Source: a virus
Virus record (IMG/VR): IMGVR_UViG_3300046369_001589
Span: 1-38,151 of that record
Strand: one strand, 5' to 3'
DNA: 38,151 nucleotides
In this document: piece after piece, positions 6,071 to 18,873 of the stretch
Numbering within the stretch: the first letter of the stretch is position 1
Layout of the letters: each line of letters starts with the position of its first letter
Position numbers and translations under genes: made by a program
Notes under the pieces: model-generated
Told to the model about the DNA's origin: nothing
Seen by the model: only the letters and a program-made list of their open reading frames with translations
The model's database searches: none

Positions 6071-8341
6071 ATGAAAAAACTACTTTTACTATTATTATCA
6101 TCAATTTACTGTTTCGCTGATACTCTTTATTTTAATAACGGAAAAGATTTAAAAGGAGATATTCTTGAGGCAAATGCAACTCACGCTTTAATAAAAAGAG
6201 CAAGTGACCTGCAATTATTTAGAATAGCAATAGATTCTCTTACAGAAGATAATCAAGCTTATATCAAAAACAACTTCCCGCCAAGCCACGAAGCTTTGCC
6301 GAAATTTAAAAAACCACTATCAGATAAAGATTTAAATACCCATGCAAGATATATTGATAGTTTAATTGAAACAAAATTACGATCATATAACCTCAAACCA
6401 AACAAAGAAGTTGATGATGCTACATTTTTGCGCAGATCTTATTTAAAGGTTATCGGAAGAACTCCGTCGTTAACGGAAGTAGACACCTTTTTAAATAGTA
6501 AAGACAAAAACAAAAGATCAAAATTAATAGATCAACTATTAGGCAGCGAAGGGTATGTGAGTCATTGGTTCAACTTCTGGGCTGATATATTAAGAATAAA
6601 AGATAGATTAAATAATAGAGTATCAGGTATACCATATAAAAATTATGTAAAAGAATTTATATCAAATAATAGACCATATGATGTTTGGGTAAGAGAAATG
6701 CTTTCTTCATCTGGAGCTTTATGGGAAAGAGGTAATGAAGGAGTTAGTTACTTTGCGCGAGATGTAAACATGCCCCTCGACAATATGGCCAATACAGTTC
6801 GCATCTTTCTTGGCACTAGTCTTGAATGCGCCCAGTGCCATGATCATCCATTTGATCGCTGGACACAAAAACAATTCTACGAAATGGCTGCGTTCACAAG
6901 CGGTTCGACAAATCTAAGAAGAAGAGGTGTTGATAATTTAGGTCAATTTAATAGATTGGTTAATACAGAACAAAGAAGGCTAGAGCAAGCAGGTGAGCCG
7001 CAAAAATCTAGACAGCTAAGAAATGAATCTAGGGGCATTCAAGACATTCTTCAAACAGGTCTAGATAGCCTGGGTTCAGGAAAAATTAATTTACCAAATG
7101 ACTATCAATATGATAACGCAAAGCCGAGCGAAATGTTATCTGGAAAAACAATTTTTGGAAAAGAAATCGACATAAAAACAAAAGCTCCTCAAGCAGGGTC
7201 TCGAGAAATATATGCAAATTGGCTTGCAACAGATTCGAATCCTAGATTTACAGCTGTTATTGTAAATAGGTTATGGAAAGAAGCTTTTGGACTAGCTTTA
7301 ATTGAGCCAATTGATAACATGTTTGATGATACATTAGCTACAGATCCAAAACTTCAGCTACATTTGGAAAAAGTTATGGTAGCTTTAGATTACGATTTAA
7401 AAGAGTTTTTAAGGGTATTATATAACACAAAAACTTTTCAGCGTCAATCTGTAATAAGAGATGTTATCCCAAAAGATAATAAAGATCAGTCTATGCCTGT
7501 AGATGTAAAATGGATTATCGCAGGACCAAATTCTGAAAAACAATCTCACAACGCTATTCCATATTTCTATCAAGGGCCAATGCTTGAAAGAATGAGTGGC
7601 GAACAAGTCTGGGATTCATTAGTAAATTTAACGTTTAACGATATAGATTCTAGAAAACTTCAGCAAAACACAAAAGGTTACGAAGAGTTTCAAAACTTTT
7701 CGGCAATGACTGGTGAAGAATTATTTCAAGATCTTATGGCCAAAATAAATAAAACCGAAAGGCCAAAAACAGCAAATAAACCAAAATTCACAGAACCAAT
7801 AAATACAGATTGCCCAATTAAACCAGGCAGAGCTATTGATCCAACTTTATTAGCTCTTAATGAAAACGGAGAGACGGTTGCATTTTGCTGCGAATCTTGT
7901 GTTGATAAATTTAAATCCCAGCAACAAACCAAGAAAGACGATTACAAGCAAAACTTTGTAAAAGATCGTAATTCCGTAAGAGCTTCTGAATTATCTTCTC
8001 CTGCTCCCGTAGGGCACCTTATTCGTGAGTTTGGTGGTTCAGATAGGGAGCAGATCGAAAACTCAAATAAAAGCGCCTCTGCAACCCAGGTACTCAATTT
8101 GCTTAACGGTTTTGTAGAAACAAGGTTATTAAAAAATAAAAACTTTGAAATTATTAAAGCAGTGCAATCTCAAAAATCTTTAGATGATAAAATTAAAGTT
8201 GGATTTAGATATATTTTAAATAGAAATCCATCCTCAAAAGAAATATCATTATTTAAATCGTCATTAAAAGACAAGAAAGAGGTATATAAAGAAATAATCT
8301 GGACTTTAATAAACACACACGAATTTATATTTATAAAATAA
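6071..8341 (+). CDS. DUF1549/DUF1553 exported protein with CxxCH motif and YHS-like insert
   Basis: A full-length 756-residue protein of a family typical of Planctomycetota, Verrucomicrobiota and Lentisphaerota. It has a Sec signal peptide (residues 1-16, ending CFA), then a short beta-rich domain (LYFNNGKDLKGDILEA, about 18-70). DUF1549 follows at about 90-290, with FLRRSYLKVIGRTPS, HWFNFWADILR and PYDVWVREML, and a cytochrome-c-like CAQCH at Cys253, Cys256 and His257. DUF1553 has SREIYANWLATDSNPRF, VNRLWKEAFG and a final INTHEFIF. Between the DUF1553 blocks, Cys581 and FCCESC (Cys606, 607, 610) form a YHS/TRASH-like metal-binding insert. The gene stands under its own promoter and is followed 22 bases later by DUF1501. 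Biochemical function of the family is not established. Presence between phage genes is the striking point. Confidence 0.9.
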   Translation: MKKLLLLLLSSIYCFADTLYFNNGKDLKGDILEANATHALIKRASDLQLFRIAIDSLTEDNQAYIKNNFPPSHEALPKFKKPLSDKDLNTHARYIDSLIETKLRSYNLKPNKEVDDATFLRRSYLKVIGRTPSLTEVDTFLNSKDKNKRSKLIDQLLGSEGYVSHWFNFWADILRIKDRLNNRVSGIPYKNYVKEFISNNRPYDVWVREMLSSSGALWERGNEGVSYFARDVNMPLDNMANTVRIFLGTSLECAQCHDHPFDRWTQKQFYEMAAFTSGSTNLRRRGVDNLGQFNRLVNTEQRRLEQAGEPQKSRQLRNESRGIQDILQTGLDSLGSGKINLPNDYQYDNAKPSEMLSGKTIFGKEIDIKTKAPQAGSREIYANWLATDSNPRFTAVIVNRLWKEAFGLALIEPIDNMFDDTLATDPKLQLHLEKVMVALDYDLKEFLRVLYNTKTFQRQSVIRDVIPKDNKDQSMPVDVKWIIAGPNSEKQSHNAIPYFYQGPMLERMSGEQVWDSLVNLTFNDIDSRKLQQNTKGYEEFQNFSAMTGEELFQDLMAKINKTERPKTANKPKFTEPINTDCPIKPGRAIDPTLLALNENGETVAFCCESCVDKFKSQQQTKKDDYKQNFVKDRNSVRASELSSPAPVGHLIREFGGSDREQIENSNKSASATQVLNLLNGFVETRLLKNKNFEIIKAVQSQKSLDDKIKVGFRYILNRNPSSKEISLFKSSLKDKKEVYKEIIWTLINTHEFIFIK

Positions 8342-8362
8342 AAACTAAAACCAAATAAAATT

Positions 8363-9646
8363 ATGAAAGTAGATGAATTAGGAAGAAGAGAATTTATTGC
8401 GTATGCCGCAAAAGCGTGCTTTGGAGTAGGCTTAATGCCTATGGCCGGAGCTTATATACATAACAATGTTAGCGCCCTTGAGCCTGCATCCAGAATACCA
8501 ACAGCTAGACACGTTATATATTTAAATATGTCAGGAGCCATGTCTCACCTTGATACTTTTGGGCCAAAGCCTGATGCGCCAGATATTCAGGGGCCGACAA
8601 AATCTATTCCAACTAGTGCAGACGGAGTGATTTTATCAGAAAATTTACCAAAAACCGCACAGTTTATGCATCATGGTGCAATTATTAAAACTATGAATAC
8701 TAGTCAGGGAGCTCATGAACAAGCGAGTTATCTTATGCATACCAGTTACCTCAAAAGAGGCACTATTGTGCACCCAACATTTGGTAGCTGGGTTTCTAAA
8801 CTTGGAGGTGCAATAAATAGAACCATTCCATCCAATGTTAAAATTGGCGGAGGAGGAGGTGGAGCAGGATTTCTAGAATCTAAATATGGCGCCTTACCAA
8901 TCAATAATCCAGCCGCAGGATTATCTAATAGTAAAATGGCATCATATCTAGATCACGAGCATTTTCAAAGCAGAATATCTATCGCAGAGGCATTAAATGA
9001 GAATTTTTCTACTCAGTTTCCTCAAAAACAAGTTAGAGCTTACTCTGATCTATATAAAGATGCAGTTAAATTAATGAATAGTGACGATTTAAACGCTTTC
9101 GATATAACAAAAGAAACAGTAGCAACAAGCGAGCTTTACGGTCAAACTAATTTCGGAAAAGGTTGTTTATTAGCAAGAAGATTGGTTGAAAACGGTGTTA
9201 GATATGTCGAAGTAACGCGAGGAGGATGGGATACTCACGATAACAACTTTGATAGAGTAGCAGCGAATTGCGCAGACATAGATCAGGCTTTAAGCGGATT
9301 ACTTTTTGATTTGAACAGAAGAGGTCTGCTTTCGGAGACTTTGGTGGTATTAACTTCTGAATTTGGAAGAACCCCAAATATTAACGGTAGAGACGGAAGA
9401 GATCATTGGCCTTACTGCTTTACCGCATTTCTTGCAGGAGGCGGAATCAAAGGCGGTATGACTTACGGGGAAACCGATAAAACAGGAAGATCTCCTATAG
9501 AAGGCAAACCAATCAAGCCAGAAGACTTGAATGCAACTATTGCTCATACTTTAGGACTTCCTCTAAATGACTACCAGTATTCTCCTTCTGGAAGGCCATT
9601 TACAATAGCTCATAAAGGTGAACCTTTACTTGATATATTGGCTTAA
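8363..9646 (+). CDS. DUF1501 protein (Tat-exported, alkaline-phosphatase/sulfatase-like fold)
   Basis: A 427-residue protein matching the partner that almost always accompanies DUF1549/DUF1553 proteins in the PVC phyla. The N-terminus carries a twin-arginine-like signal (GRREFIAYAAK, Arg8-Arg9, then a hydrophobic stretch to about 38). Family motifs: MSGAMSHLDTFGPKP, QGAHEQASYLMHTSY, GGWDTHD (residues 287-293), SEFGRTPN (about 332-339) and GRDHWPYCFTAFLAGG. The conserved Asp/His residues of GGWDTHD and GRDHWP resemble metal sites of the alkaline-phosphatase superfamily, but activity is unproven. A GGGGGGAG run sits near residue 168. It shares the promoter of the upstream gene and is closed by a palindromic terminator, so the two form a self-contained cassette. 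Confidence 0.92.
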   Translation: MKVDELGRREFIAYAAKACFGVGLMPMAGAYIHNNVSALEPASRIPTARHVIYLNMSGAMSHLDTFGPKPDAPDIQGPTKSIPTSADGVILSENLPKTAQFMHHGAIIKTMNTSQGAHEQASYLMHTSYLKRGTIVHPTFGSWVSKLGGAINRTIPSNVKIGGGGGGAGFLESKYGALPINNPAAGLSNSKMASYLDHEHFQSRISIAEALNENFSTQFPQKQVRAYSDLYKDAVKLMNSDDLNAFDITKETVATSELYGQTNFGKGCLLARRLVENGVRYVEVTRGGWDTHDNNFDRVAANCADIDQALSGLLFDLNRRGLLSETLVVLTSEFGRTPNINGRDGRDHWPYCFTAFLAGGGIKGGMTYGETDKTGRSPIEGKPIKPEDLNATIAHTLGLPLNDYQYSPSGRPFTIAHKGEPLLDILA

Positions 9647-9739: not shown

Positions 9740-10753
9740 TTAAAAATCATCCTCAAGAGCTCCACTTTGCTGGTATTCTCTAACCCTGCGCTCAAAGAAA
9801 TTACCCATCGCTTGAACATCAACTACTTCACTAAGCCAAGGAAAAGGATTTTTGTCGCTAGGAAAACGGTAATCTAATCCAATACCTTCAAGCCTGCGAT
9901 TACCAATATAATGCATATAGTCAACAAACATATCTGCATTCAACCCAAGGATACCAGTGGGTAAAACATCATGAGCGTATGCGATCTCAAGCTCAACAGC
10001 TTTTTTCATATGTTCTACAAATTCATTTTGAATTTCTTCTGTCCAAATCTCAGGGTTTTGCTCTATTAAAGTATTAATTAAATATGTACCAAATGCAATA
10101 TGAGAGCTTTCATCTCTTAAAGTATATTTGATTTGATCAGAGATTCCTTGCAGTTTGTTTTGTCGACCCAGCGCCAAAAGCATAGCGAATCCACTAAAGA
10201 AAAATGTTCCTTCGCATACTATCCAATAAGTTAGAAAGTTTCGAAGAATTTCTTGCTTACCTTCTGTAGTATGAGGATCAAAGTCTTGACGACTAATATC
10301 ATTAGTGATTTCCATTAAAAAATCATCCTTAGCTTTAATACTTGGAATCGTTTCGTATGCAGCGAAAACCTCCTCTATATTTAGATCGAGGCTATCGCAC
10401 ACATATACTACCGTGAGATTGTGAAGACTTTCTTCAAAAGCCTGACGAAGAATGTACTGACGACACTCAGCATCAGTAATAAATCTAAAAGCCGAAAGAA
10501 GCAAGTTATTGCCAACCAAAGACTCAGATCCAGCAAAGAACCCAAGGCAGCGTTTAACGAGTAATTTTTCATCTTCTGTGATTTCATCATTTTTCCATTG
10601 TTTAATGTCATTCTGCATACTGATTTCAGTAGGCATCCAGTTATTTGCACAACTTTTTAAAAATAAATCCCACGCATACTTATGCTTGTGAGGTAAAATT
10701 CTATTTACTCCAGCAATGTTTTCTGTTAATAATTGTCCTGTTTTATTTTCCAT
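9740..10753 (-). CDS. nrdB: Ribonucleotide reductase class I small subunit, R2c-like (no radical tyrosine)
   Basis: A 337-residue R2 subunit that should form the metal cofactor needed by NrdA to make dNTPs. The start at 10753 (MENKTGQ) is chosen because a consensus promoter overlaps the longer frame (10771). All six metal ligands are visible: Glu77, Glu108, His111, Glu181, Glu215, His218. The radical site, four residues after His111 in E-x-x-H-x-x-x-Y, is Val115, not Tyr. The overall sequence closely resembles the Chlamydia trachomatis R2c as I recall it (Glu ligand first, Phe at the radical site), which uses a Mn/Fe cofactor. The C-terminal tail (GALEDDF) for docking to NrdA is present. It is transcribed from its own promoter rather than with nrdA. 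Confidence 0.93.
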   Translation of the reverse strand: MENKTGQLLTENIAGVNRILPHKHKYAWDLFLKSCANNWMPTEISMQNDIKQWKNDEITEDEKLLVKRCLGFFAGSESLVGNNLLLSAFRFITDAECRQYILRQAFEESLHNLTVVYVCDSLDLNIEEVFAAYETIPSIKAKDDFLMEITNDISRQDFDPHTTEGKQEILRNFLTYWIVCEGTFFFSGFAMLLALGRQNKLQGISDQIKYTLRDESSHIAFGTYLINTLIEQNPEIWTEEIQNEFVEHMKKAVELEIAYAHDVLPTGILGLNADMFVDYMHYIGNRRLEGIGLDYRFPSDKNPFPWLSEVVDVQAMGNFFERRVREYQQSGALEDDF

Positions 10754-10761
10754 ATATATTA

Positions 10762-10790
10762 ATAATACCAAATTAAGATAACGATGTCAA
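10762..10790 (-). promoter_or_regulatory. Promoter for nrdB, near-leaderless
   Basis: On the minus strand TTGACA (10790-10785) is followed by exactly 17 bases and then TATTAT (10767-10762). The ATG at 10753 comes eight bases after the -10 box, leaving a leader of about one or two bases. The box lies directly after the subtilase stop. Confidence 0.85.
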
Positions 10791-10792
10791 TT

Positions 10793-12103
10793 TCAATTTG
10801 GATTATTATTTATTTCATCTAAAAACTTTTGATCCCAATCCACATATTCTATTTCTCCACATTGAGATAAAACAAAAAATAAAATTAATGAAGCTAACAC
10901 TACTCCTCCTATTATAAAATATTTAATCTTAGAAGGTTTTTCAGGCTTTGGCACAGGTTCTGGTTCAGGATCTTCAGGTTCTGGCTCAGGCTCTGGTTCA
11001 GGATCTTCAGGTTCTGGCTCAGGCTCTGGTTCAGGATCTTCAGGTTCTGGCTCAGGCTCTGGTTCTGGATCTTCAGGTTCTGGCTCAGGCTCTGGTTCAG
11101 GATCTTCAGGTTCTGGCTCAGGCTCTGGTTCAGGATCTTCAGGTTCTGGCTCAGGCTCTGGTTCAGGATCTTCAGGTTCTGGCTCAGGCTCTGTTTTTTC
11201 ATCTTCTCCGAATATCATTTCTTTTGGGTCAATTATACCATAGCCCCAAGAACTATCTCTGCCAATAATACCTTTATCATCTGCGCAACTAGACAAAAGA
11301 TCTCTAATTTTTTTCAAATCATATTGCTCATTGTCTGCTTTAAACTTAGAAATTAATAACGCAACAACTCCAGCGACAAATGGGCAAGCCATAGAGGTTC
11401 CGCTTAAGCTTGCATATTCATTATTTAAATAAGTACTGTATACTCTAACTCCTGGAGCTGCAATTTCCACCTGCTTACCTCTTGAGGAAAAATGTGCGAC
11501 ATTGTCATATTTATCAAATGCTGCAACAGCAATACATTCTTCATATGCTGCGGGGTAATTGACTCCACCATATCCACTATTACCTGCTGCGCAGATTATG
11601 GGAATATTTTTCTGGTGAATTTCCTTAATCACATTATGAACTTCTGGATATGGAAAAGCCGACCCTAGAGATAAACTTATGATATCAACATTTTGCTCCA
11701 AACAGTATTCTAATGCACTTTTTAATGATAACATACTACCTGAACCACTATTACTTAAACCTTTGATGCATAAACATTTAGATTTAGGCGCAACACCCAC
11801 CATTCCAAATTCATTATTCTGCGCTGATATAATTCCAACACAATGAGTTTGATGTCCATGCAAGTCTTCAATTGCTTCTCCATCAATACAACTAACGCCT
11901 TCAATTGCATTTGATCCTATATCCTGATGAACAGGTAGACCTGTGTCAATTACAGCAATTTTTACATTCTCACCTTGATATTTTTTCCATATATCAGGTA
12001 TGTTCAATTTTTTTATACCCCATCCATCTACTTGACTCAATGAGGAAACAACTTTTTCTATTGTAAATTCTGGTAAACTAGTAATATCTTCTTTCATATC
12101 CAT
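10793..12103 (-). CDS. Subtilisin-like serine protease with acidic Pro-Glu repeats and C-terminal membrane anchor
   Basis: A 436-residue S8 peptidase. The catalytic triad is complete: Asp53 in IAVIDTG, His84 in HGHQTHCVG, Ser237 in SGTSMACPF, with oxyanion Asn175 in CAAGNSG. There is no signal peptide, as in intracellular subtilisins. After the catalytic domain (about 30-295) comes a tail of [11 protein letters not shown] units (about 305-390), then a basic PKPEKPSK segment, one membrane helix ([17 protein letters not shown]) and a short acidic end. It should therefore be anchored in the inner membrane by its C-terminus with the protease on a long stiff acidic stalk, probably facing the cytoplasm. 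It lies between nrdA and nrdB. A processing role on phage or host proteins is guesswork. ATG 12097 is an alternative start. Confidence 0.9.
10950..11191 (-). repeat. 33-bp minisatellite encoding the Pro-Glu stalk
   Basis: Seven near-identical 33-base units begin at 10968, 11001, 11034, 11067, 11100, 11133 and 11166 (each beginning GGATCTTCAGG on the plus strand). Copies differ by almost nothing, for example one C/T-type change before 11067. The unit is 11 codons long, so changes in copy number keep the subtilase frame. Confidence 0.95.
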
Positions 12104-12122: not shown

Positions 12123-12392
12123 TTAGCTTAATGCTTCTAGTATGTTTGAATATTTTTCAATGTCAATAGCAACTCTAATAGATTCGTCAGCTTCCGGATT
12201 TAAGCTTAAATACTTTTTACCTCGATCAATAATTTCTTCAAGTGTTTGAATATAAGCGGTTTCCGCGAAATCTCTCTGTTGTCTATAATTCCAAGCCTCT
12301 ATATTAGAGTTGATTTTTTCTAAATCTTTACGAATTAATTTACATCTTACTATAGCTTCTTTAAATGCTTTTAAATGTTTATGTCTATTCAT
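12123..12392 (-). CDS. Hypothetical protein, helical, coupled to nrdA
   Basis: An 89-residue protein starting [10 protein letters not shown]. The start at 12392 overlaps the nrdA stop by one base (TAATG), the arrangement used repeatedly in this genome, and is preferred over the longer frame from 12443, which lies within nrdA. It is charged and almost wholly helical ([20 protein letters not shown], then [19 protein letters not shown]), suggesting a short coiled coil or helical hairpin. No family recognised. Translational coupling suggests it is made with NrdA. Confidence 0.7.
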
Positions 12393-14806
12393 TATTGACA
12401 ACTTTCGCAAGTGCCACCATTTTTCATAGCTTCGATACTGCAAGCAGTAGCTTCAGTAGTCTTTTCTTCAGTATTTGCTTTTTCTACCTTGGATGCAGCT
12501 CTGTTACGAAGATAATAAGTTGTTTTTAATCCTGCTTCCCAGCAAGACATATAAACATCATTTAAATACTTTAATGAAGTAGATTTATTATAAAGATTGA
12601 AACTTACAGCCTGATCTATCCATTTTTGTCTAGTTGCATTACATTCAATCAATTTAAACATATCACGATCAAAAGCAGTTTTATATTTTTCTTTTAATTC
12701 AGATGGAATATCTCCGTTCAATAATGAAAGATCGCCGTCAACGCTTTTTACAAGCTTGGCAGTTTCACTATTCCACAGACCAGCATTTTTCATATCATTA
12801 ATAAAATGTTCATTCGTAATAAAGAAATTACCGCTCTTATTTTCGTATACAAATAATACAGAAAAATTGGGCTCTATACTTTGCTCTACGCCATTGATAT
12901 AACCAATAGTAGCTGTCGGAGCAATAGCCATAACATTACTATTACGCATACCATTTTGCGAGATACTTTCCCTAACAATACCCCAATCAAGAGTAGTCTT
13001 AGGTTCAAACTGATTGCCCTTGTATTTCATGAGGTCTGCATAAGAATCAATTGGAAGTTTATTCTGACTCCACAATGAACCCTCGAAAGTCTGGTATTGA
13101 CCCTTTTCTTTGGCCAATAAAGAGCTTGCATAAATCGCATGATATGAATAAAACTCAAACAATTTATCATTAAATTCTACAGCTTCATCACTATCAATAT
13201 TAATATTCATTCTATGACAAATATCATGTAATGCCATCATACCTAAACCAATAGGGCGATGTTTTAAATTACTATTCTCCGCTTCTTTAGTTGGATAAAA
13301 ATTAAGATCCACAACACTATCTAAAGCTCTAATAGCAGTATGTATTGTATTTTGTAATTTATCATAATCTAAAGTATTATCATCATTTAAATGATTTAAA
13401 AGATTAACTGATCCGAGATTACAAACGGCGGTTTCTCCAACGCTTTTCTTTTCTCCTTTTTCGTACTCAGAAGACTTTGTATGAAGAGTGATTTCCGTAC
13501 ATAGATTACTGCTATGAACAACACCTTCGTGTTGGTTTGTATATCTAATATTGCATGGATCTTTGAAAGTATTCCACGGATGAGAAGTTTCAAATAATAC
13601 CTTGAGCATTTTCTTCCATAATTCTTTCGCGGGGGTTACTCTGTAATTTTTAATTAAACCCTCTTCCGCTTGATTGCACAGATCATTATACTTCTTGTCA
13701 AATTCTTGACCAAATAAATCATGCAACCCAGATTCTTTAGGGTCAAAAAAGTACCAAACATCTTCATTCTGAACTCTGCGCATAAACTCGTCCGGAACCC
13801 AAGAAGCTGTATTCATATCATGACATCTTAATCGATCATCTCCAGTGTTTCTTCTTAAATTCAAGAAATCCTCAAAATCTAAATGCCAAGGTTCTAGGTA
13901 AGCGCAGCCAGCGCCTGGCCTTTTGCCGCCTTGATTAACTGCAACTAAAAGATCATTGTATATCTTTAACCAAGGAACAAGTCCGCTGGAAATTCCATTT
14001 GTTCCTTTAATATGCGAACCTGTTGATCTAAAAGGAGTTACATCAAGACCTAGTCCTCCAGCATATTTACTTTTACGCGCTTCTTGCCAAGCTCCATCAA
14101 AAATACCATCGATACTATCGTCAAAAGTATTTAAATAACAAGAACTTAATTGAGAGCGTACGGTTCCACTATTGAAAAGCGTTGGGGTTGAAGAAGTATA
14201 AAGAAATTGACTAAACATATCATAATACTTGATAGCCCACTCTTCTTTATTTTCTTCATTAAGAGCGAGACCCATCGCGACTCGCATCCAAAAAGATTGT
14301 GGCGCCTCCATAATTTTACCCTCTTCTCGTATAAAATATCTATCAGCGAGAATTTGTATGCCCAAGTATTTGAACGAAAGATCTCTGCGGATTCTAATTG
14401 CTTCTGAGAGTTTATTTAAATCATACTCTAACATTCTGCTATTTAATTTTTCAGTTTTAACGAGTCTTTTGATTCCTTGCATAAAACTCTTTCTGTACTG
14501 CAGTCTAAAAATATCTGAATCCACACCTTCTTTAAATACCTCTTTATATACCGTATTTAACAATAACCTGGCTGCAGCATGACTATAGTTTGGCTCTTTC
14601 TCGATTTTTTCTCGAGCGCTTAAAATAAGAGCGGTATCAATTTCTTTTGTTGTGATTTTATCGTACAACTGAAGCTGTGCATCAAGCACAATTTCGCTTA
14701 CAGACACGTCGGATATGTCTTCGCAAGCGCGCTCCACATTTGCATTAATTTTGTCTACTATAAACTCTTGAAGTCTTCCGTTTCGTTTTTTTACTTTAAT
14801 ATCCAT
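12392..14806 (-). CDS. nrdA: Ribonucleotide reductase class I large subunit
   Basis: A complete 804-residue NrdA that reduces ribonucleoside diphosphates to deoxy forms. An ATP-cone regulatory domain occupies residues 1-92 (VKKRNGRLQEF), so allosteric activity control by ATP/dATP is likely. Active-site residues are all present: Cys223 (QLSSCYLNT), Asn434, Cys436 and Glu438 in SSNLCTEIT, and Cys462 (AVCNLGS). The radical-transfer tyrosine pair in TTYYLR and the C-terminal redox pair Cys800/Cys803 (GGTCESCQ), which accepts electrons from thioredoxin or glutaredoxin, are also there. No intein or intron is seen. It has its own minus-strand promoter, divergent from the replicase operon. Confidence 0.97.
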   Translation of the reverse strand: MDIKVKKRNGRLQEFIVDKINANVERACEDISDVSVSEIVLDAQLQLYDKITTKEIDTALILSAREKIEKEPNYSHAAARLLLNTVYKEVFKEGVDSDIFRLQYRKSFMQGIKRLVKTEKLNSRMLEYDLNKLSEAIRIRRDLSFKYLGIQILADRYFIREEGKIMEAPQSFWMRVAMGLALNEENKEEWAIKYYDMFSQFLYTSSTPTLFNSGTVRSQLSSCYLNTFDDSIDGIFDGAWQEARKSKYAGGLGLDVTPFRSTGSHIKGTNGISSGLVPWLKIYNDLLVAVNQGGKRPGAGCAYLEPWHLDFEDFLNLRRNTGDDRLRCHDMNTASWVPDEFMRRVQNEDVWYFFDPKESGLHDLFGQEFDKKYNDLCNQAEEGLIKNYRVTPAKELWKKMLKVLFETSHPWNTFKDPCNIRYTNQHEGVVHSSNLCTEITLHTKSSEYEKGEKKSVGETAVCNLGSVNLLNHLNDDNTLDYDKLQNTIHTAIRALDSVVDLNFYPTKEAENSNLKHRPIGLGMMALHDICHRMNINIDSDEAVEFNDKLFEFYSYHAIYASSLLAKEKGQYQTFEGSLWSQNKLPIDSYADLMKYKGNQFEPKTTLDWGIVRESISQNGMRNSNVMAIAPTATIGYINGVEQSIEPNFSVLFVYENKSGNFFITNEHFINDMKNAGLWNSETAKLVKSVDGDLSLLNGDIPSELKEKYKTAFDRDMFKLIECNATRQKWIDQAVSFNLYNKSTSLKYLNDVYMSCWEAGLKTTYYLRNRAASKVEKANTEEKTTEATACSIEAMKNGGTCESCQ

Positions 14807-14916: not shown

Positions 14917-15690
14917 ATGTTACCTTTATTCAAAAGTCACTTTTCTATTGGAAAGAGCATATTAACACTTGACGATCCAATTACACATAAAGAAGGAAAA
15001 TCAGATAGTGTTTTCGATATAGCTACAGAAAATAATTTAAAAGAAGTCGTTTTAGTCGAAGATTCGCTGACAGGATTTCTTCAAGCCAAAAAGCAGGCTG
15101 ATCAGCTAGGTTTAAAACTTGTTTTCGGCTTGCGGATCACTATGAAAGAAGACGCTTCAATTAACCCCAAAGAAGAAGCTCAACAATCAGCGCATAAGAT
15201 TGTAATTTTCGCGAAGAACGCCAAGGGTTGCACACTTTTAAATAAGATTTACAGCGAAGCTCATACCGAAAATTTCAATTCTGTTGACTCAAAACTACTA
15301 AAGAAACATTGGAATGACAAAGATCTTTTATTAGCTATTCCATTTTATGATTCATTTATATTTAACAATTTAACTAAATTTTGTAATTGCACTCCTAGTT
15401 TTTCTTTTTGTAAACCAACTCTATTTATCGAAGATAATTCTTTACCATTTGATAATTTAGTAACAAAAAGAGTGGAAGAATATGCAAATAAAAATAAATT
15501 AAAAACACAATTAACAAAAAGTATTTATTATAAAAATAAAAAAGATGTAAAAGCTCTACAAACATATAAATGTATAACAGGTAGAAGCTTTGGAAATAAA
15601 ACATTATCAAAACCAAACTTAGATCACTTCGGTAGCAATGAATTTTGCTTCGAGAGCTGGAAGGAAAAAAATGAAAGAATCACTGCTTAG
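14917..15690 (+). CDS. DNA polymerase III alpha, separate PHP-type N-terminal module
   Basis: A 257-residue protein corresponding to the N-terminal PHP region of DnaE, encoded as its own gene. Family features: the SHFSIGKSIL segment in place of the usual His-x-His PHP start, then LKLVFGLRIT, HKIVIFAKNAKGCTLLNKIYSEAHT and LLLAIPFYDS. It ends near GSNEFCFES, where DnaE would continue into the polymerase domain. Most PHP metal-binding histidines appear lost, so a structural role is more likely than phosphoesterase activity. The start at 14917 is set by the promoter at 14881-14909. Its last 20 bases overlap the exonuclease gene. It should assemble with the polymerase encoded at 16315. Confidence 0.75.
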   Translation: MLPLFKSHFSIGKSILTLDDPITHKEGKSDSVFDIATENNLKEVVLVEDSLTGFLQAKKQADQLGLKLVFGLRITMKEDASINPKEEAQQSAHKIVIFAKNAKGCTLLNKIYSEAHTENFNSVDSKLLKKHWNDKDLLLAIPFYDSFIFNNLTKFCNCTPSFSFCKPTLFIEDNSLPFDNLVTKRVEEYANKNKLKTQLTKSIYYKNKKDVKALQTYKCITGRSFGNKTLSKPNLDHFGSNEFCFESWKEKNERITA

Positions 15691-16315
15691 ATTTCAAAAG
15701 AATAAAAAATATTTACTGTTTGATTATGAAACATGTAATTTAAATCTTGTGTCGAATAATAAACCATGGCAATTAGCATTTCTTGTTATAGAAAATAATA
15801 AGATTGTAGAATCAAAAGATTATTGGTTAAAATGGGAGGAATTAAATGTGTCTCCTGAAGCCGCAAAGATTACTGGTTTTACAGAAGCGAAGTACAAGAA
15901 AAAAGCTTCGTGCCCAAAAGCTGCGCTAGATCATTTGGAGAAATATTTATATGATGACTCCTATCTTAAAGTTGGTCACAACTTACTTGGCTTTGATGTT
16001 TATATGCATAATGTTCATCGCAAATTGATTGATGAAAATGCAGAGACTGATTTCAGCTATACAGAGCATCTCGTAGACACTCTTTGTCTCGCGAAAGCTC
16101 TTAAAAAGAGAATTAGGTTAGATAAAGATGATAATTTTCTAGCGTGGCAATACAGACTTAACCACTTGATTGAAAGAGGTTTAAGTTGCAACCTAAAGCA
16201 GTGCTGCAAAGATTTTGATGTTGACTTTGATGAAAAAAAATTGCATGATGCTCTATATGACATTAGAGTTAACTACGAAGTATTCAAAAAAATGATATGG
16301 GAGATAGAAGTATAA
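15671..16315 (+). CDS. DEDDh 3'-5' exonuclease (proofreading, DnaQ/PolC-exo-like)
   Basis: A 214-residue proofreading-type exonuclease. The catalytic set is complete: Asp18 and Glu20 in LLFDYET, Asp109 in GHNLLGFD, and His192/Asp197 in HDALYD. The start at 15671 has a strong ribosome site (GGAAGG seven bases before ATG) and is preferred to an upstream ATG at 15638 inside the PHP gene. The gene sits between the PHP and polymerase parts of a DnaE-type replicase, and its stop overlaps the polymerase start by one base (TAATG). The protein should correct errors of that polymerase in trans, mirroring the order in PolC, where the exonuclease is inserted in the PHP region. Confidence 0.9.
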   Translation: MKESLLRFQKNKKYLLFDYETCNLNLVSNNKPWQLAFLVIENNKIVESKDYWLKWEELNVSPEAAKITGFTEAKYKKKASCPKAALDHLEKYLYDDSYLKVGHNLLGFDVYMHNVHRKLIDENAETDFSYTEHLVDTLCLAKALKKRIRLDKDDNFLAWQYRLNHLIERGLSCNLKQCCKDFDVDFDEKKLHDALYDIRVNYEVFKKMIWEIEV

Positions 16316-18873
16316 TGAGTTTTACAGAACAATTTACAGATTACCAAGACTGTGCGCCTCCAGGCGTAAGACTACCAGAAATTAAAATTGAAAAGAAGTA
16401 TTATGAAATGCTTGAAGCATCAGAAGATATTTCTAATTTAGATTTCCTTAGAAAACTATGCCATAAAGGAGTATATGATAGAGGAATCGATAAATTTAAA
16501 AATAAACAAGAATACTTTGATAGAGCAAAATCAGAACTAAAGATATTAGATGAGTTAGGATTTATAGATTATATTCTATTAAACTGGGATATTCTTAATT
16601 TTTGCCACGAGAGTGATATTCCAACTGGACCAGGCAGAGGATCTGCTGCAGGATCTTTAGTATTATACTTGATTGGAGTAACTAACGTTGACCCAGTAAA
16701 ATATAGTTTATTCTTTGAAAGGTTTGTGTCAAAAAGTCGTGCTCGCAAAATTGACAAGGATGGAATTACTTATCTTGATGGAAGTTTATTGGCTGACGTA
16801 GATAATGACATTGCCTATGAAAGAAGAGCGGAGGTTATTCAATACATTGAAGACAAGCATCCTTGTCGTACCGCAAAAATATTAACATTAAATACTCTTA
16901 GTGGTAAACTATGCATTAAGGAATGCGGTAAAATAGTTGGAGAATTCTCAGAGCAACAAGTAAACGAAGTGAGTGATACTATACCGAAACGATTTGGGAT
17001 AGTATTACCAATTCACTCTGCTATAGAGGAAAGTGAAAAATTCGCTGATTGGACTGCGGAAAATCCAGAGGTATTTGAAATAGCTCTTAAACTAGAGGGT
17101 TTAAATAAAAATACTGGAGTTCACCCAAGTGGAATCGCGATTTCTTATCAAGAGATTACAGATATTTGTCCTCTGCAAAAATCAAACGATGGCGCTTTAG
17201 TTACAGGATACGATATGAATTGGGTCGCGGAGCTAATGGTTAAGTTCGATATTCTTGGATTAAGAACTTTGAGCGTAATATATGATGTTTGTAAAAATTT
17301 AGATTTAGATATATCATCTGTCGATTTAAATGACAAAGATATCTTCAAGCCTTTACAAGGCCTGAAAACTCCTCATGGACTTTTTCAGCTTGAATCTGAC
17401 ACTAACTATAGGGTGTGTAAAAAAATTAAACCAAAAGATCTTGAGCAACTCAGCGCTGTAATAGCGATAGGTAGACCAGGAGCCTTGGAATTCCTTGACA
17501 ACTATGTAACTTATTCCGAAACAGAAGAAGCGCAGGTTATACATGATTTTTTTACTGATGTATTGGATTATACAGGAGGTATTCCTTTATACCAAGAACA
17601 ATTGATGCAAATGGCGGTAAAGGTTGGTTTTACGCTTGATGAGGCGGAGCAATTAAGAAGAATTGTGGGTAAAAAGAAAGTCGATAAAATGCCTGCTTGG
17701 AAAGCTAAAATCGAAGAAAAAGTTCAAGAAAATGATTTACCACGAGAGGTGTCTCAAATACTTTGGAGTGTTGCAGAAGATAGTGCAAATTATTCTTTTA
17801 ATAAGTCTCACTCTCTCGCTTACGCAACGCTGTCTGCTTGGACGACATATCTTAAGTTCAATCACCCTCAACAATTTTTCATCTCTTTATTGAAGATGAC
17901 CAAATACGAGCCTTCTCCTCAGGAAGAAATATCAAAAATCTCTAAAGAGTTATCGAATTTCGGAATTAAATTACTGTCTCCTGATTTAGCCAAGTCTGGA
18001 ATGGACTTTTCTATCGAAGGTAAAAACATAAGGTTTGGACTAAACAGTATCAAGGGAGTAAGCGAGAAGTCACTACAATCACTCAGAGACTTTCGCTCAA
18101 GCGAGACGCCAACTAAATACGATATCTTTCTTGCAGCTAAACAAGCAGGATTAAATATTGGAGTATTAAGCGCCCTTATTCAAGCTGGCGCTCTCGAAAG
18201 TAAAGGTAAACACAGATCGCTTATGGTACTTGAAGCTCAGGCATTTAATCTTCTTACAGATAGAGAAAAACGTAATTTTATTTCTTTAGGAGAACAATAT
18301 GAGTATAAACTGTTGAATTGTATTGCAGACGCCAAAAAAGGAGATCTTGTTGGAGATGATGGTAAACCATTAATGAAAGAATCTAGATTTAAAACATTTA
18401 AAAAGAAATATGATATCTATAAAGAAATTTACGATAAAAACAAAAACTGTCAAAATTTCGCTAATTGGTATTTTGAAACAGAATTATTGGGCTATAGCCA
18501 TAGCTCCTCCCTTAAAGCATGCTTTATTGATGCGTATGATTCCTTAAGAGACTCCAGAGATCTTCAGGTGATGCATACAGAAGATAAAGGTAAATTTATA
18601 GGTGTTGTTGAAGACTGCATTAAGAGAACGTCTAGAAACGGCAATAAATATATGAAACTGTCAATTACAGATGAACATGGAAAGTATGATGCCATGCTTT
18701 TAAACTCCAGAAGAGGAAACTTTTACGATCGATATTTCGAATCAGACAAAAAAACCCCAACCAAGAAAAATATTATTATAGCATACGGCAGAAAAGCAGA
18801 AGACATTATATTTTTAGATTCTATAAATATTATGGATGAAAAGATATACATGAAAATGTCTGAAGTGAAGTAA
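16315..18873 (+). CDS. dnaE: DNA polymerase III alpha subunit, polymerase core with OB domain
   Basis: An 852-residue C-family polymerase lacking the PHP region, which is encoded upstream. Core motifs: PGRGSAAGSL (residues 106-115), the catalytic aspartates in ADVDNDIAYERR (Asp161, Asp163, Asp165; the family usually has PDxDxDF), VHPSGIAI, YDMNWVAELMVKFDILGL, GLFQLES, AIGRPGALE, QLRRIVGKKK and NKSHSLAYATLSAWTTY. The C-terminal part (about 755-845) is an OB fold (GKFIGVVEDCIKRTS, KLSITDEHGKYD). It should be the replicative polymerase of the phage. The start at 16315 (TAATG overlap, GGGAG upstream) is preferred to 16297. No clear beta-clamp or clamp loader gene is in the window. Confidence 0.95.
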   Translation: MSFTEQFTDYQDCAPPGVRLPEIKIEKKYYEMLEASEDISNLDFLRKLCHKGVYDRGIDKFKNKQEYFDRAKSELKILDELGFIDYILLNWDILNFCHESDIPTGPGRGSAAGSLVLYLIGVTNVDPVKYSLFFERFVSKSRARKIDKDGITYLDGSLLADVDNDIAYERRAEVIQYIEDKHPCRTAKILTLNTLSGKLCIKECGKIVGEFSEQQVNEVSDTIPKRFGIVLPIHSAIEESEKFADWTAENPEVFEIALKLEGLNKNTGVHPSGIAISYQEITDICPLQKSNDGALVTGYDMNWVAELMVKFDILGLRTLSVIYDVCKNLDLDISSVDLNDKDIFKPLQGLKTPHGLFQLESDTNYRVCKKIKPKDLEQLSAVIAIGRPGALEFLDNYVTYSETEEAQVIHDFFTDVLDYTGGIPLYQEQLMQMAVKVGFTLDEAEQLRRIVGKKKVDKMPAWKAKIEEKVQENDLPREVSQILWSVAEDSANYSFNKSHSLAYATLSAWTTYLKFNHPQQFFISLLKMTKYEPSPQEEISKISKELSNFGIKLLSPDLAKSGMDFSIEGKNIRFGLNSIKGVSEKSLQSLRDFRSSETPTKYDIFLAAKQAGLNIGVLSALIQAGALESKGKHRSLMVLEAQAFNLLTDREKRNFISLGEQYEYKLLNCIADAKKGDLVGDDGKPLMKESRFKTFKKKYDIYKEIYDKNKNCQNFANWYFETELLGYSHSSSLKACFIDAYDSLRDSRDLQVMHTEDKGKFIGVVEDCIKRTSRNGNKYMKLSITDEHGKYDAMLLNSRRGNFYDRYFESDKKTPTKKNIIIAYGRKAEDIIFLDSINIMDEKIYMKMSEVK

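Follow-up and report, generated by a model that had tools for sequence, protein, structure and literature searches.

Must the PHP domain of a C-family DNA polymerase be part of the polymerase chain? It has been described, together with palm, thumb and fingers, as belonging to one polypeptide (PMC3666897), and a survey describes it as present in all C-family polymerases (PMC12926913). The question is raised by a locus of the linear IMG/VR virus record IMGVR_UViG_3300046369_001589, whose 38,151 bp were analyzed in full and are referred to below as the window. Here, three overlapping genes encode a PHP protein, a DEDDh exonuclease and a DnaE-type polymerase that lacks PHP, and we found that the carriers of this three-gene replicase make up a large family of mostly marine, uncultured phages. 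We propose, at a probability of roughly 0.7, that the products form a three-subunit core in which PHP packs on the palm/thumb and helps hold the exonuclease. The features of the locus are as follows.

14917..15690, + strand: PHP protein encoded on its own, 257 aa, with a degenerate metal site; probably a structural/adaptor subunit
15671..16315, + strand: DEDDh 3'-5' exonuclease of DnaQ/epsilon fold, 214 aa; probably the proofreader
16315..18873, + strand: PHP-less DNA polymerase of the C family (DnaE type), 852 aa, with palm/thumb, fingers, (HhH)2 and C-terminal OB-like region
15671..15690, + strand: PHP/exonuclease gene overlap, 20 bp, seen in the sequence; translational coupling probable
16313..16317, + strand: TAATG stop/start overlap from exonuclease to polymerase, seen in the sequence
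15683..15694, + strand: LLRF peptide immediately ahead of the nuclease fold, at the N terminus of the exonuclease; speculative candidate for a docking peptide

Conservation of the three-gene order

Start codons of all three genes were fixed by alignment with relatives. The PHP gene starts at a conserved ATG (14917), GTG 14833 being merely the mechanical start of the open reading frame (ORF). Similarly, the exonuclease starts at a conserved ATG (15671) with GGAAGGAAAAAA ahead of it, and its mechanical ORF start lies upstream at 15638. The polymerase ATG (16315) has one base in common with the exonuclease TAA. ORFs and junctions therefore bear out the original prediction of three adjacent genes with a 20-base overlap followed by TAATG. 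In many relatives the 20-bp overlap was kept, or a cargo gene located there overlapped both PHP and exonuclease; the −1 overlap of exonuclease and polymerase was the same in most.

A first IMG/VR scan gave 169 contigs with polymerase relatives, and 80 loci were kept. Except for three that ended at a contig edge before PHP, all loci (77/77) had the order PHP-exonuclease-polymerase, with the three genes on one strand and each in its own reading frame; identities to the window were 59–92% for the polymerase, 40–84% for PHP and 41–97% for the exonuclease. The same order was found in 11 more contigs binned in bacterial metagenome-assembled genomes (MAGs), with polymerase identity down to 46% (one further MAG-binned contig, a duplicate of L076, was not counted), and in 31 of 33 new contigs from two further scans that used distant members. 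Overall, 119 of 121 contigs with enough upstream sequence carried PHP, exonuclease and polymerase in this order as separate, co-inherited genes. Many contigs came from different samples or assemblies and some were near-copies of one another; distinct sequences numbered 105 for PHP, 102 for the exonuclease and 110 for the polymerase. The original prediction had read the locus as a DnaE replicase split into genes of one operon and had proposed a survey of gene order in other viral contigs; the Pfam assignments given below and the survey itself agree with that reading.

Many members had a whole cargo gene inserted at the PHP/exonuclease or the exonuclease/polymerase junction, and the stop/start overlaps were usually preserved. 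The PHP/exonuclease junction serves as a cargo site, as the following examples show.

L003 6872-7378 and L017 6869-7378: SET-domain gene
L034 6392-7366: IMPDH/GMP reductase gene
L051 6503-7375: Cupin_8/JmjC gene
L055 6927-7340: cupin gene

Because whole genes are inserted at the junctions and relatives have separate ORFs, the three products are separate polypeptides. No natural fusion of the three parts occurred among the 119 contigs. Inteins were rejected as the cause of the split, as no intein pieces were present at the PHP end or the polymerase start. The polymerase gene itself is cut by apparent split inteins in L197 (4980-8867) and L102 (4977-7964), both at NYSFNK/SHS, and in L219 (4959-8036) at GRG/SAAG; a 298-aa probable homing endonuclease lies between the pieces in L197.

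A DnaE-type polymerase cut at the PHP border

Pfam detected DNA_pol3_alpha (1e-61), DNA_pol3_finger (9e-34) and HHH_6 (3e-15) in the polymerase. Searched against structures, its profile matched Taq DnaE at 6e-112, E. coli DnaE at 4e-99 and PolC at just 7e-7. The DnaE match spanned palm, thumb, fingers and helix-hairpin-helix (HhH) in DnaE order, and a weak second match at the DnaE OB region points to a C-terminal OB-like region. Four invariant residues, D161, D163, D165 and D312, align with E. coli D401, D403, D405 and D555; D161, D163 and D312, the D-x-D and third Asp of a Pol-beta-like palm, are kept in 109–110 of 110 polymerases.

Alignment of the polymerase to DnaE begins where PHP ends, and the PHP gene covers the remaining DnaE N terminus. 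Near the polymerase N terminus, LPEI...FLRKLC was matched by eye to E. coli LPQF (278) ...YLVKRAKEG (291), and the PHP gene ends at about the counterpart of Taq residue 249. The cut is thus placed at the PHP/palm junction, and the expectation that the polymerase starts just where DnaE leaves PHP was correct. There is no N-terminal PHP domain in the polymerase chain, and PHP is a separate gene in the relatives. As judged by alignment, the polymerase is a DnaE homologue without a domain held to be universal.

An inactivated PHP protein and an intact exonuclease

The PHP protein was recognized by Pfam PHP (9e-7, above the cut-off), by PHROG_405 (DnaE; residues 61-292, 2e-14), by HHalign against phage PHP (96% probability, 2.9e-9) and by a Foldseek match of its fold to the PHP domain of Taq/E. 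coli DnaE. Active PHP exonucleases have the signature HHDHEH[C/H]DH, i.e., nine metal ligands, seven of which could be aligned here, the Cys position having no confident alignment. We found L/I-x-K in place of H-x-H, E48 and a deleted H in place of D-H, R73 for E, K94 for H, and S/T202 and mostly Y204 for D-x-H. Across the seven alignable positions the canonical ligand set was missing in all 105 distinct sequences, which confirms the degenerate metal residues suspected earlier; nearly invariant motifs (SIGKSIL, EDSLTGF, PFYDSF, LPFD and PNLDH) were present instead. The median ratio of nonsynonymous to synonymous substitution rates (dN/dS; close pairs, simple Nei-Gojobori, 9–13 pairs) was 0.053 for PHP, 0.024 for the exonuclease and 0.048 for the polymerase. 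Such strong purifying selection indicates that PHP is no relic. PHP/polymerase and exonuclease/polymerase distances correlated at 0.94, a value that shared descent alone can give.

The exonuclease matched RNase_T (3e-14) and PHROG_192, "DNA polymerase exonuclease subunit" (1e-19). Its DEDDh residues (D18, E20, D109, H192 and D197) are invariant in 101–102 of 102 sequences, and its fold matched E. coli epsilon (2ido/2gui, template modeling score 0.81), though a sequence search of the PDB with the exonuclease profile gave no match at 1e-3. Residues L5, L6 and R7 are invariant in the main clade (77/77 sequences with aligned N terminus); that this LLR motif serves as a docking peptide is speculation from sequence conservation.

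Known phages and closest systems

In INPHARED, 1325 records had C-family matches, none of which spanned 80% of the window polymerase; the exonuclease had no tblastn match there at 1e-3 and the PHP protein a single one, at 4e-3. Most of 13 phages compared had PHP joined to the polymerase, or had splits that lay within the palm or were due to homing endonucleases. In two, PHP had a gene of its own, which bears the plain annotation DnaE.

Rhodococcus phage Grayson: gp102, PHP, 303 aa; gp103, polymerase, 942 aa
Microbacterium phage MortySmith: gp54/gp55, separate PHP gene and PHP-less DnaE gene

As in the trio, the PHP gene of both phages lies directly upstream of a PHP-less DnaE gene. Unlike the trio, they have two genes with no exonuclease between them and other cut points, and the Grayson PHP, which retains HxH...DH...E, is apparently active. 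In a tree of 56 polymerases, made of cellular DnaE (mostly Proteobacteria) and phages only, without DnaE2, DnaE3 and PolC, the three-gene family formed one clade on a long stem (Shimodaira-Hasegawa-like approximate likelihood ratio test, 100), and Grayson and MortySmith fell elsewhere, beside phages with fused PHP; owing to long branches and partly concatenated split genes, depth relations in this tree are unsure. Since these two phages sit in other parts of the tree than the trio clade, the data suggest at least three independent PHP/polymerase splits in phages, subject to the long branches. Grayson and MortySmith are precedents for the PHP cut, and the three-gene form is a separate clade.

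Among characterized enzymes, the E. coli Pol III core (alpha-epsilon, DnaE1) has the same palm/thumb, fingers and HhH, an inactive PHP and a separate DEDDh exonuclease. It differs in that PHP is inside the alpha chain, a C-terminal tail of epsilon makes the contact with PHP, and dnaE and dnaQ are not in such an operon. PolC has the same set of parts (PHP, DEDDh exonuclease and C-family polymerase) in one chain, with an N-terminal OB and the exonuclease inserted inside PHP (PMC3919608). A minimal split Pol III alpha was reported in group 2.2 jumbo phages (Iyer et al. 2021, PMC7824862); there, too, a C-family polymerase is spread over several phage genes, but the cut is inside the catalytic part, the genes are far apart, PHP is missing and PolB is also present. 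In a marine jumbo-phage group, DNA_pol3_alpha was found in 51.9%, the layout not being given (PMC9123017). In Pbunavirus (Pseudomonas phage R26, gp28/gp27) a 3'-5' exonuclease gene overlaps the start of the DnaE gene as in the trio, but the 1035-aa polymerase still has a degenerate N-terminal PHP-like region. A literature search that covered few subscription papers turned up no C-family polymerase with PHP encoded separately and no PHP-exonuclease-polymerase trio, and novelty is unproven to that extent.

Replication context

Twelve relatives of 116–211 kb each had a single DNA_pol3_alpha gene and a single PHP gene of the phage family, and Pfam detected no PolA, PolB or second C-family gene in them. 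All records are linear in IMG/VR and perhaps incomplete, and the completeness of these 12 contigs was not established. A DnaB-like helicase was present in 11 of 12, and G001 also had a DnaG-like primase, a RecA-like gene, a PDDEXK nuclease and a ligase-like gene. Because no other DNA polymerase was detected in the 12 long relatives, the trio is likely the phage replicase.

In deep relatives the genes are dispersed. For example, the exonuclease of L099 is 2.5 kb before the polymerase, and the PHP gene of L238 (5977-6669, − strand) is apart from the polymerase, by helicase, primase, PDDEXK and RecA-like genes. Because PHP is set apart from the polymerase in such relatives, it is an independent gene of the replication module.

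Proposed replicase and alternative explanations

In this proposal the phage encodes its own replicase, a polymerase III core of the DnaE type whose subunits come from the three genes and assemble in trans. The 852-aa polymerase subunit would make DNA and the DEDDh exonuclease would proofread, and PHP, having no metal site, would be a structural adaptor packed against palm/thumb like the PHP domain within the DnaE chain. PHP may also help to bring the exonuclease close to the 3' end, much as epsilon is positioned by the inactive PHP of E. coli alpha, and the overlapping genes probably couple translation so that the subunits are made together. It has been reported that the E. coli PHP is inactive and bears the epsilon binding site (PMC3919608), that it acts as a structural scaffold supporting the stability and activity of the polymerase, and that loss of PHP ligands goes with an epsilon homologue in trans (PMC3666897). 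Ligand loss in 105/105 PHP with DEDDh kept in 101–102 of 102 exonucleases is the same pattern as in E. coli. We propose the three-subunit core because the trio shows this E. coli-like division of labor with PHP in trans; from it we infer physical assembly and its stoichiometry, the adaptor role of PHP and replication of the phage genome.

Several observations weigh against this assembly. The exonuclease has no C-terminal tail past the nuclease fold, unlike epsilon, whose tail binds PHP. An AlphaFold2 model of PHP and polymerase, a low-confidence artificial single chain, reached a predicted local distance difference test score of 50 and a predicted template modeling score (pTM) of 0.42, and so speaks neither for nor against the contact; it was made by common-frame read-through from PHP to polymerase, with stops as Gly and the out-of-frame exonuclease region as linker, and 23 relatives were treated likewise. 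The PHP-exonuclease model, from L030, which has both genes in one frame and the stop between them read as linker, had folded domains and a pTM of 0.57 with an interface without confidence (14 sequences, artificial single chain). A bacterial beta clamp was not found by Pfam, T4-type clamps were not searched, and processivity is unexplained. In L195 the PHP gene is about 5.4 kb upstream of the polymerase, among RecA-, DnaB-like helicase-, primase- and PDDEXK-like genes, and no exonuclease of the phage family was found in this 31-kb contig. The 16.7-kb contig L192 has the polymerase alone; PHP and exonuclease were not found.

The L195 layout, with PHP beside helicase, primase and PDDEXK genes, and the cargo genes that often part PHP from the exonuclease are what would be expected if PHP were not joined to the polymerase, serving instead as a separate replication protein (e.g., helicase/primase adaptor or regulator) while polymerase and exonuclease work alone. 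We consider this unlikely: PHP adjoins the exonuclease-polymerase pair in nearly all members and supplies exactly the domain missing from the polymerase, and PHP is described as occurring in all C-family polymerases (PMC12926913) and as stabilizing E. coli Pol III (PMC3666897). It is improbable that the trio is an accessory or repair polymerase in phages whose genome is copied by the host replisome. DnaE2-type repair polymerases do exist (PMC12926913), no clamp was found by Pfam and the linear records may be incomplete; however, the trio polymerase was the only one detected in 12 long contigs, it is highly conserved (59–92% in the first scan), and phage helicase, primase, RecA and ribonucleotide reductase genes are found alongside.

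The original prediction had offered a PolC-like layout broken into genes, or an intermediate arrangement, and the gene order does resemble the PolC domain order at first sight. Both are very improbable: the structure match is to DnaE (6e-112 vs 7e-7 for PolC), the OB-like region is C-terminal, and the phage PHP is uninterrupted, whereas in PolC the exonuclease interrupts PHP and the OB is N-terminal (PMC3919608). With the family forming one clade on a long stem and genes dispersed in deep relatives, the split is a derived trait of the clade, with no visible sign of an intermediate. That sequencing or assembly errors created false stops at 15690 or 16315, or that the gene has decayed, is almost certainly wrong. 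Nothing except the unusual layout speaks for it, and it is contradicted by more than 100 contigs from independent assemblies with the same separate ORFs, by cargo genes at the junctions, and by purifying selection on all three genes.

As an extension of the three-subunit core, it is possible, though doubtful, that the freed PHP is a dedicated, exchangeable replisome adaptor that docks polymerase and exonuclease reversibly, and perhaps helicase/primase given the L195 layout, with a synthesis/proofreading switch by subunit exchange.

Neighboring genes

A Clp-type AAA+ ATPase gene (from 18889) is next after the polymerase gene. Just upstream of PHP are the ribonucleotide reductase large and small subunit genes (12392-14806 and 9740-10771, − strand), from which the replicase operon is divergent. 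A subtilase (10793-12103, − strand; Peptidase_S8, 2e-47) carries a long tail of EPEPEPEDP repeats and has a hydrophobic stretch at its C terminus. Positions 6071-9646 encode a PSCyt2/PSD1 (DUF1549/DUF1553) protein and then a DUF1501 protein; DUF1501 was present in 10 of the 12 long relatives. The gene pair PSCyt2/PSD1 and DUF1501 is typical of Planctomycetes and Verrucomicrobia, and in a phage it is possibly a host clue or a conserved auxiliary function.

Implications

PHP is normally held to be a built-in part of the C-family polymerase, and the trio family encodes it apart. Long branches permitting, phages have severed PHP from the polymerase on at least three occasions. In E. coli, Pol III shows cooperative unfolding and becomes less stable and less active when PHP is mutated. 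A whole phage clade whose PHP has its own gene, is catalytically dead and yet remains strongly conserved is a natural experiment on the purpose of PHP, and the scaffold hypothesis becomes directly testable by adding or omitting one small protein. If the exchangeable adaptor is real, switching would take place by subunit exchange and not within one cooperatively folding chain.

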